Below, one piece after another: positions 25,210 to 28,467 of a stretch of 64,000 nucleotides of DNA. Below the pieces are notes generated by a model. It ran no database searches. It was given only the letters and a program-made list of their open reading frames with translations, and was not told the origin of the DNA. The stretch covers positions 345,203 through 409,202 of the forward strand of contig JAIYDL010000007.1 in assembly GCA_027487515.1 (NCBI GenBank), read 5' to 3'. Source of the DNA: Pseudomonadota bacterium (GTDB lineage Bacteria; Bdellovibrionota; Bacteriovoracia; Bacteriovoracales; Bacteriovoracaceae). Every line of letters starts with the position of its first letter. Position 1 is the stretch's first letter. Made by a program: the position numbers and the translations under genes.

Positions 25210-25431
25210 TTACTGTAAAGTTTTGGAACGCTTGCCTTTTCTCACTTTGGCCACTTTCGAGATCGCGTATTCCATGAGCATGAGAGCCTCCCGGCGCAGA
25301 CCATTGTCGTGGATGTAGCGGTAGAAGTTTTCGATGTCTCCGTTCGAGCGGAAGTTCTTGATGGTCATGACCTCGGGAACCGCCGGGGCCACTTTCTCTT
25401 CCGTCGCTGGGGTGATCGTCGTCTTAGACAT
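25210..25431 (-). CDS. Small conserved-looking protein, unknown function
   Basis: 73 aa ORF with its own intrinsic terminator; basic C-terminus VRKGKRSKTLQ. Confidence 0.65.
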   Translation of the reverse strand: MSKTTITPATEEKVAPAVPEVMTIKNFRSNGDIENFYRYIHDNGLRREALMLMEYAISKVAKVRKGKRSKTLQ

Positions 25432-25482
25432 AAATGCTCCTGTTCATTGTAGTTTACTTTTTCTTGCCTAACTCTTCAAATC

Positions 25483-26973
25483 TTATTGTGCTTCACGGGC
25501 CTCGATCATGCCGTAGCTATGAAGCTTGTTATAGAGAGTCTTCACCGTAATTCCAAGAGCTTTAGCTGCACGAGTCTTATTCCCACCGAGATGCTGAAGA
25601 GTGTCAACGATGTGCTTCTTCTCGAGATCAAAGAGAGTAAACTCCTGATAGATCGGCTTCTCTTCGACTTTCTCTACCTTCACTTCCTGAGCAAACTCCG
25701 GCAGATGCGCAGCCTCAATGTACTGACCGTCAGTGAGGATGTATGTGCGCTCCATCACATTCTTCAATTCGTGAGCATTCCCTGGCCAGAAGTAGGTCGT
25801 GAGTTTTTCGATCGCGGCCGAGGTAAGGACTTTCTTCTCAACTTTTCCGTGATTCAGGAAGTACTCCGCCATGACTTTCACGTCTTCCTGGCGGTCGCGG
25901 AGGGCCGGAATCTTCATCCCGACAGTGTTGAGCCGGTAGAAGAGGTCTTCCTTAAAGGCGCCGGTTTCAACCAGACTCTTCAAGCAGGTCTTAGACGTCG
26001 CGATGAGGCGGACGTTCAACGCAACTTTCTGATCCGTGTCCACCGTGATCATTTCGCCGGCGACGAGGGAGCGCAGAAGCTTCGTTTGTATGTTGAGGGA
26101 GCATGAACCGATGTCATCGATGATGAGCGTCCCGCCGTTCGCCTGGAGCATGAGACCTTTCGAAGAAAAGATCTCTCGGTCGAGCTGGGCTTCGCTGAAG
26201 GCACCGCAGGAAGCGACCACGACCGCACCCTTACGACCCGACCAGTTATGGATCTTCCGTGCGAGGATTTTCTTCCCCACTCCGTGTTGACCTTCGAGGA
26301 GCACTGGGAAATCTTGCGCCGCAATTTTCTTAGCCGTTTGAACGACCTCGAGGAAGCTTTTTGAGAGTCCCATCATCTGCGAATTATCTTCAAAGGATTT
26401 GGTCATCTGAATCTCGACCCGGTTCGAGAGTTCTTTCTCCCGGGCCTCGATCTTCTGGAGGAGTTCGCGGTTAAGATTCTTCGCCATGAGAAACAAGTGC
26501 ATGTTCCGGATCGGCGACTGGAGCTGTTGCAAGATTTCATTCAGAGTCACGAGGTCGGCTTCTCCGAAGTTGCGGTCTTTCTTAAGAGACTGAACGTTCA
26601 GCGTACCGATGACAGAACCTTCGACGATGATCGGGAGGCAGAGCTCTGCTTCAACCGCATCGTCCCGGTAACCGTTGACCGCGATCGGATCGCGCTTAAC
26701 CGAATTCGAGTAGTACGCACGCTTCATCCGAGCAACGTAGCCCGCGACACCCTGGCCCTTGTTGAAGAGGCGAGCGGCCGAAAGAGCAGAGCCATTTTCG
26801 GCGATCAAGCGCGTAGAGCCATCGGAGAGGACTTCGAAGCCAAGAACTTTGTATTCACCCATGACTTCCTGGACGTAGCTCGAGAGCTTCGAGAAGAAGA
26901 CAACTTCATCGAGGTTCGAGAGAAGAACTGTTGAAAGAGTAGCAAGTTCATTCTGATGAGCAGCTGTTTTCAT
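25483..26973 (-). CDS. GAF-AAA+-Fis type transcriptional regulator lacking GAFTGA
   Basis: GAF-like N-terminus; Walker A EGQHGVGKKILA; Walker B GGTLIIDDIG; Fis-type HTH LGGNKTRAAKALGITVKTLYNKL. Confidence 0.88.
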   Translation of the reverse strand: MKTAAHQNELATLSTVLLSNLDEVVFFSKLSSYVQEVMGEYKVLGFEVLSDGSTRLIAENGSALSAARLFNKGQGVAGYVARMKRAYYSNSVKRDPIAVNGYRDDAVEAELCLPIIVEGSVIGTLNVQSLKKDRNFGEADLVTLNEILQQLQSPIRNMHLFLMAKNLNRELLQKIEAREKELSNRVEIQMTKSFEDNSQMMGLSKSFLEVVQTAKKIAAQDFPVLLEGQHGVGKKILARKIHNWSGRKGAVVVASCGAFSEAQLDREIFSSKGLMLQANGGTLIIDDIGSCSLNIQTKLLRSLVAGEMITVDTDQKVALNVRLIATSKTCLKSLVETGAFKEDLFYRLNTVGMKIPALRDRQEDVKVMAEYFLNHGKVEKKVLTSAAIEKLTTYFWPGNAHELKNVMERTYILTDGQYIEAAHLPEFAQEVKVEKVEEKPIYQEFTLFDLEKKHIVDTLQHLGGNKTRAAKALGITVKTLYNKLHSYGMIEAREAQ

Positions 26974-27036
26974 GTGGATCCCCTTTACACTTAAATCTTC
27001 AATGTGTTTAAAAATTACACAGTGCGTTATGGGGAT

Positions 27037-27065
27037 ATATTACAGGCTGGCTGAAAAATTTACAA
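27037..27065 (-). promoter_or_regulatory. Sigma70-type promoter upstream of the regulator gene
   Basis: minus strand TTGTAA-N17-TAATAT, about 65 nt before the ATG. Confidence 0.55.
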
Positions 27066-27114
27066 GACCATTTTGCTGCGGTGTTTAAAGTTTCTTCGAA
27101 AAAATTAGCAATTC

Positions 27115-28467
27115 CTAGAGGTTAGTCCACTGAGGAGAGAAGCATTGACCAAAATCCTGGGTCAATTGCCCTAAAATCTCCCCTTCTCTGTTCATGATAT
27201 AGACATCTTGAACGGCCTTACGACGACTTAGCATCCGCTTTGACGAAAAAATGATGAACTCACCGTCAGGCGAGAAGGTGGGTTCTTCGTTCGAGCCGAA
27301 CCCCTTGGTGAGGCGGACTAAGTTGTTCCCATCGGCGCCGATCCGGTAAAGGTCAAAGCCGTTGTCGACCCAGGAGGTGAAAACGATCTCCTTCCCATCC
27401 GGCGAAAACCTCGGAGTCGCATTGAACTGGCCCACGAAAGAAATCCGCTTCACGTCCTTCTCGGTTTCGGAGGGATTCAAGGTGTAGATGTGGGCCCGCC
27501 CTGAGCGGTTCGTGAGGAAGGTCATGAGAGACCCATCTCGAGTCATCGAGGGATCCACATCGTCCCCGTAGTGGGAGGTGATTTTCCGCATGCGACCGGA
27601 GGAGACATTGAGTTCATAGATGTCGGCGTTTCCACTGAACGAGAGAGTCAGATAGATCGTGTCTTGAGTGGCGCCGAAGATGGCGCCGGAGTTAATCCCA
27701 GGCCGATCGGAGATGGTCGTGAGCTTCTTGGTCTTGAGGTCGAGGAGCTTGAGGTCAATGTTCTTCAGAACTCGGACCTTCGTCCGGGAGACTTCCCTCC
27801 TCGAAGCGATCAGAGAGAACATGATCTTCGAGTTGTCCGGAGAGATCGAGGGAGAGAGGACGACAGAATTGAAGTTCGTGAGCTTGTCGACTCGGCGACC
27901 ATCGAAGTCCATGAGGTAGAGTTCTTTTTCAATCTCCTTGCCGCTGGTGCGGTCCGAGATGAAGAGGATCTTCGATTTAAAGATCGACGGCTTCCCCGTC
28001 ACCGATCGGTAGAGTGCGTCGGCGATACCGTGGGCAGTGGGCCTAAGCCCATCCGAGGAGACTCGGACCTTGCCGGAGTACAGTTCTTTTTTTGCGAGCA
28101 CCGACCAGACCTTGAAGCTCGCGTCCACGCTCTGCCCCGGCCCCGGATCCATGCGTCCGGCGACGAAAAAGCTCACGCCATTGGCCTGCCACTTCTCGAG
28201 CTCTGGAGTAGAGAATGAATTCTTCCCCTTCTCCACGTAGTCGACGGCGTTGAACTTATGCTTATAGAAAAGGAAGTCGTTCCGGAGCACCTCGAGGAGT
28301 TCGGCAGAGACGCGCTTCTGATCCCCGGAGAGGGCCCCGAGTTCCGGGTCGTCGATGACGAGCTTGGCCTTGTCCTGCTCGGCCTGGCCCACGGCGATGA
28401 CCGCGTCCTGACCCAGGGCGAGCTGCGAAGCGAGGAACAACAGGAAAAAGAAAACTGTGTGTTTCAT
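27115..28467 (-). CDS. tolB: Tol-Pal system beta-propeller protein TolB
   Basis: Signal peptide; repeated FSPDGKEIVFTSWVDNGFDLYRI / FSPDGEFIIFSSKR blades; downstream of tolQRA. Confidence 0.9.
   Translation of the reverse strand: MKHTVFFFLLFLASQLALGQDAVIAVGQAEQDKAKLVIDDPELGALSGDQKRVSAELLEVLRNDFLFYKHKFNAVDYVEKGKNSFSTPELEKWQANGVSFFVAGRMDPGPGQSVDASFKVWSVLAKKELYSGKVRVSSDGLRPTAHGIADALYRSVTGKPSIFKSKILFISDRTSGKEIEKELYLMDFDGRRVDKLTNFNSVVLSPSISPDNSKIMFSLIASRREVSRTKVRVLKNIDLKLLDLKTKKLTTISDRPGINSGAIFGATQDTIYLTLSFSGNADIYELNVSSGRMRKITSHYGDDVDPSMTRDGSLMTFLTNRSGRAHIYTLNPSETEKDVKRISFVGQFNATPRFSPDGKEIVFTSWVDNGFDLYRIGADGNNLVRLTKGFGSNEEPTFSPDGEFIIFSSKRMLSRRKAVQDVYIMNREGEILGQLTQDFGQCFSPQWTNL

Follow-up and report, generated by a model that had tools for sequence, protein, structure and literature searches.

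How does a regulator built on the plan of a sigma54 activator operate once it has lost the loop through which such proteins engage sigma54? In canonical activators sigma54 is contacted by the L1 loop, and most mutants in its GAFTGA motif are unable to activate (PMC7175178). The question is posed by a gene at positions 25483-26973 of the window, by which we mean the whole 64,000-nucleotide stretch of DNA analysed here; it belongs to a genome of 3.4 Mb, most of whose relatives in the named collection carry the title Bacteriovoracaceae, Bacteriovorax or Halobacteriovorax. The gene lies on the minus strand, as do all window features given below. Its ATG-initiated reading frame of 496 codons, which matches its description in the first-pass annotation, encodes in order a GAF domain (GAF_2, residues 28-151; 26521-26892), a sigma54-type AAA+ domain (Sigma54_activat, PF00158, residues 201-352; 116.9 bits, cut-off 20.2), a lid (AAA_lid_14, residues 359-435) and a Fis-type helix-turn-helix (HTH; residues 447-490, 25504-25635), the last matched by HTH_8 at residues 449-486 with 46.7 bits (cut-off 22); no receiver domain was found with Pfam. 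We propose, with moderate confidence, that this protein evolved from a sigma54 activator into a pseudo-ATPase that dispenses with sigma54 and probably acts as a repressor of its own sigma70 promoter.

The L1 segment with its GAFTGA has been deleted from the window protein rather than mutated. In an alignment with ZraR (1ojl), SCGAFSEAQLDREIFSS abuts KGLMLQANGGTLIIDDIG where ZraR has GHEKGAFTGADKRREGRF, and it is this direct run-on, with a 12-residue gap between F269-S-S and K272-G (junction F269-S-S-K272, 26158-26169) into which the GAFTGA of ZraR falls, that identifies a deletion and bears out the first-pass annotation, according to which the segment was missing. The letters GAF do recur in SCGAFSEAQ, and a remnant of the motif can be ruled out there, since their counterpart in the alignment is the switch-asparagine strand (NCAAL in ZraR). 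An AlphaFold model (mean pLDDT 86, pTM 0.49), proposed earlier as a check on loop L1, finds its top PDB matches among sigma54 activators, including ZraR and NtrX, and superposes on the AAA+ domains of FleQ, FlrC and NtrC1 with an rmsd of about 2 A; as modelled, the AAA+ fold is preserved and the loop is absent. It had also been asked whether a corrected assembly might restore GAFTGA. An error of assembly or a frameshift can be excluded as the source of the gap, because the same deletion recurs in a separately assembled, 96% identical orthologue and in every other member of the genus.

Much of the machinery for ATP hydrolysis has changed as well. Walker A is present as GQHGVGKK (residues 228-235; 26269-26292) with Lys234 in place, and the glutamate that normally follows it (Walker A +1) is replaced by lysine. 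Walker B reads IIDDIG (residues 284-289; 26107-26124), as had been noted before, with D286-D287 standing for the canonical Asp-Glu, and the switch asparagine position is occupied by Ser255. One of the two arginine fingers is retained in the segment GAFKEDLFYRLN (residues 338-349; 25927-25962), where the second is Arg347 and the first has become Lys341, and in the sensor II segment GNAHELK (residues 398-404; 25762-25782) the arginine is His401. These replacements make ATP hydrolysis by the regulator doubtful, and it looks lost; weak hydrolysis is possible, given that the window's lineage keeps Asp286 and Arg347. The label of AAA+ regulator given to the protein in the first-pass annotation is probably too strong, as hydrolysis appears to be gone while nucleotide binding may remain.

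The regulator is widespread, with a match in 123 of the 129 genomes of the order and in 71 of the 73 of good quality, and its surroundings are conserved. Across the family the order of genes, by Pfam names, is ExbB, ExbD, TonB/TolA, TolB, the regulator, a gene for a 73-residue protein and an HD-domain gene; in the window the TolB-like gene lies upstream at 27115-28467 and the gene for the 73-residue basic protein, the regulator's partner by synteny across the phylum, downstream at 25210-25431, preceded by a genus-conserved sigma70-like promoter read from the sequence directly after the regulator stop codon (TTGAAG, 17 nt, TAAACT; 25451-25479). The 73-residue gene also follows the regulator in several other families of this phylum, in some of which tolB precedes the regulator too. 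By synteny, the window gene is orthologous to intact regulators in those families, where 19 of 20 aligned syntenic orthologues outside Bacteriovoracaceae keep GAFTGA. These orthologues (L104-L112, L141-L156) share with the window protein its 73-residue neighbour and a nearly identical HTH (GITIKTLYNKLHRYG in the outgroup against GITVKTLYNKLHSYG in Bacteriovoracaceae), and differ from it in having GAFTGA, the Walker B Asp-Glu, the arginine fingers and sensor II intact; they are presumably true sigma54 activators, and a search for sigma54 promoters adjoining them gave no consistent match. The GAFTGA-bearing state would most simply be ancestral. The one exception (L151, genome G226) has CAFAGA with the remaining catalytic residues intact, and is perhaps an early stage of the same loss. 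The 73-residue protein, which has no Pfam match, turned up in 145 of 192 genomes of this phylum; it combines a core, NFRxxxDIENFYRFIxENxLRxEA, with a basic tail, which some genomes extend into a long K/A-rich, histone-H1-like stretch.

Within Bacteriovoracaceae, GAFTGA is absent from 61 of 63 aligned proteins, which fall into clade A, the window protein's lineage, with the loop deleted (26 proteins), and clade B, with a loop of other sequence that is deleted in one member (35 proteins). We followed six catalytic features, namely the Walker B Asp-Glu, the switch asparagine, both arginine fingers, the sensor II arginine and the Walker A +1 glutamate, and all six are invariant in the 22 proteins of GAFTGA-bearing lineages (20 from the outgroup and two from the family). 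Clade A has lost the sensor II arginine and the Walker A +1 glutamate throughout (26/26 each) and the Walker B glutamate in 22 of 26, and retains the second arginine finger in all 26; clade B has lost the Walker B aspartate in all 35 and the second arginine finger mostly, and retains the sensor II arginine in 32. Common to nearly all (59/61) is the Walker A lysine, so that nucleotide binding may have been kept. Such different patterns of decay are what two separate losses of GAFTGA might produce, and the first trees also pointed that way; a tree constrained to place every GAFTGA-less family member in one group is not rejected (AU p 0.77), and the regulator tree itself contains a split uniting them, though an unsupported one. 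The trees are therefore compatible with one loss or two, and GAFTGA was possibly lost twice. The protein L113 (G086) has a loop and Walker B region that are almost unrecognisable and an HTH that is still conserved, and another genome of its genus (G049) holds no orthologue at the cut-off. The window's own genome encodes two more sigma54-activator-like proteins without GAFTGA and with an altered Walker B (L008 and L009, on contigs C13 and C8).

The conservation that remains is centred on DNA binding. Between the window gene and its nearest orthologue the overall dN/dS is 0.018, and the HTH shows no amino-acid substitution at all; purifying selection is ongoing. No other domain is as well conserved in the GAFTGA-less clades as the HTH, which is near invariant across Bacteriovoracaceae: mean pairwise identity in these clades is 80-82% in the HTH against 45-49% in the AAA+ core, where the GAFTGA-bearing outgroup has 72% and 74%, respectively, and the majority of the 29 invariant columns of a 60-sequence alignment lie inside it. 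From these comparisons, constraint has shifted off the ATPase core and not off DNA binding.

What the HTH may bind is suggested by the region upstream. An element like CTTGTAAAnnnTTCAnnCnnnnTGTAnnAT, with the layout TTGTAA, 17 nt, TATTAT or TAATAT, precedes the regulator in nearly every family member examined; in the window it is CTTGTAAATTTTTCAGCCAGCCTGTAATAT (27037-27066), the sole match in the genome. A plain sigma70 consensus scan does not list it, so the case for a promoter rests on conservation. When nine genomes were searched with two mismatches allowed, six had a single exact match, directly upstream of the regulator, in one the sole match was a different one, with two mismatches, and two had none, and control patterns gave zero matches. 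A single exact match per genome in six of nine, with none for the controls, shows that this is not a generic promoter type of these bacteria, and the first-pass annotation, which had called the regulator's own promoter sigma70-like, is upheld on both counts, family conservation and the lone upstream match.

Just past the -10 hexamer lies a candidate operator, TAACGCACTGTGTAA (27015-27029), a 15-bp imperfect palindrome of consensus TTACGCANTGCGTAA located about 37-40 nt from the first base of the promoter element. In a held-out test, in which a matrix trained on one clade was used to score the offset of the best site in the other (chance about 20%), the clade A matrix placed the best site at the expected offset in 13 of 26 clade B genera, and the clade B matrix in 13 of 16 clade A genera. 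A consensus-free dyad test scored the AT-rich -35 region highest and the palindrome next. The position of the site just after the -10 fits repression, and the link from HTH to palindrome is suggested by position and conservation. The two family members that retain GAFTGA (L066, L093) also carry the promoter and a palindrome, so autoregulation may predate the loss of the loop.

Regulators of this kind have precedents. TyrR of E. coli is a relative of the AAA+ activators that acts at sigma70 promoters, represses its own gene and carries a Fis-type HTH; its N-terminal sensor, which responds to aromatic amino acids, is unlike that of the window protein, which scores far under the TyrR equivalog cut-off (NCBIfam NF008085; 165.7 bits against 576), as it also does under those of NtrX (NF051870; 178.5 against 600) and ntrC (TIGR01818; 171.3 against 558.6). 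VpsR of Vibrio cholerae has a receiver-like domain, not GAF, and its match to the window protein is weaker (107.6 bits). VpsR is another GAFTGA-less activator relative at sigma70 promoters, where the published members of this group work (PMC10274813). The NtrC proteins of Caulobacter crescentus and Rhodobacter capsulatus share the L1 deletion with the window protein, and the former shares a Fis-type HTH as well; both act at sigma70 promoters, the Caulobacter protein being an autorepressor and the Rhodobacter protein requiring ATP binding and not hydrolysis, features that for the window protein are only predicted (PMC10274813). Both have a receiver domain where the window protein has GAF. The Rhodobacter protein serves a nitrogen regulon, and the Caulobacter protein needs its Walker A and B residues for function, whereas in the window protein the canonical Asp-Glu is altered and clade B lacks the Walker B aspartate. 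The account with the best support makes the window protein a sigma54-independent regulator akin to TyrR or Caulobacter NtrC. It stands apart from these relatives by its GAF sensor, by how far its catalytic residues have decayed and by the series of intermediates that spans the family.

We therefore picture, as the reading we prefer, an ancestral sigma54 activator (GAF, AAA+, Fis) adjoining the gene for a small basic protein in this phylum, which in Bacteriovoracaceae would have lost its sigma54-contacting loop and much of its ATP-hydrolysis machinery and kept its DNA-binding domain, GAF sensor and nucleotide-binding lysine. The product, as a dimer or oligomer, would regulate at sigma70 promoters through DNA binding; it would bind the 15-bp palindrome at the transcription start and repress its own sigma70-type promoter, its DNA binding tuned by a GAF ligand and perhaps by bound nucleotide; further targets may exist.

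An unlikely but serious alternative is that the protein activates at sigma70, in the manner of R. capsulatus NtrC, helping RNA polymerase elsewhere through ATP binding without hydrolysis, and that autoregulation is minor or absent. The near-universal Walker A lysine is what this would predict, and the precedent is published (PMC10274813); yet the conserved palindrome occupies a repressor position just past the protein's own -10, and the genome scan yielded no other target, the genome-wide palindrome search giving nothing above control counts. We regard as more doubtful the possibility that another regulator reads promoter and palindrome while this protein controls other genes without sigma54. 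The link from HTH to palindrome is not direct, and most outgroups whose HTH is nearly identical have no such site upstream; against this, the only site in the window's genome within two mismatches sits at the promoter of the regulator itself, where a self-regulating protein would be expected to have it.

That the protein is still a sigma54 activator, reaching sigma54 by a different surface or as part of a ring shared with a partner that has GAFTGA, strikes us as very improbable. Its setting would allow it: the window's genome encodes one RpoN and six canonical, GAFTGA-bearing activators, and the window's lineage keeps Arg347 and the Walker B Asp286. The sensor II arginine, the switch asparagine, the Walker A +1 glutamate and the L1 loop are, however, all gone from the window protein, and GAFTGA mutants are mostly unable to activate (PMC7175178). 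The presence of RpoN (121 of 129 genomes of the order) and of canonical activators means that sigma54 control persists in these bacteria, and RpoN loss is ruled out as the cause of GAFTGA loss. The non-sigma54 mode proposed by the first-pass annotation thus gains support, in that syntenic orthologues outside the family keep both GAFTGA and the catalytic residues, and nearly all of the family has lost GAFTGA and ATPase residues with it despite RpoN. A decaying gene or assembly artefact, which the missing motifs of known enzymes might suggest, can be dismissed given its distribution (123/129 genomes), a dN/dS of 0.018, an HTH unchanged from the nearest orthologue and the shared deletion.

More tentatively, and with less confidence than in the autorepressor reading itself, we suggest that a sigma54 activator was converted into a sigma54-independent pseudo-ATPase, possibly twice and by two routes of decay, with the HTH and the autoregulatory sigma70 promoter in place before the loop was lost, as the promoter and palindrome of the two GAFTGA-retaining family members would imply. 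GAFTGA-less activators have been known as single cases. In this phylum a single syntenic gene offers its intact, eroded and deleted versions for comparison, and a sigma70 promoter and candidate operator are preserved within the family alongside them; hence the order in which a sigma54 activator driven by ATP parts with its loop and with its ATPase, and the prior role that allowed it to survive, become testable. A literature search found no paper on this gene in Bacteriovorax or Bdellovibrio, and in Bacteriovoracaceae it should not be annotated as a sigma54-dependent regulator.

Some smaller observations attach to the locus. Palindromes resembling the operator lie between divergent genes in two other genomes (L164, 2705-2719; L170, 3096-3110), the genes concerned being radical-SAM-like or trypsin-like with ankyrin repeats, and may be due to chance. 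Synonymous sites in codons 1-25 of the regulator (26899-26973) are unusually conserved in the genus, with a same-codon ratio of 1.5-1.8 against about 1.1-1.3 elsewhere; the Shine-Dalgarno AAGGGG could pair with CTCTTT in codons 12-14, a pairing that shows no covariation, and the 5' end has no match in Rfam. At the other end of the gene, synonymous divergence is lowered in the HTH codons (25486-25635), just upstream of the promoter of the 73-residue gene.
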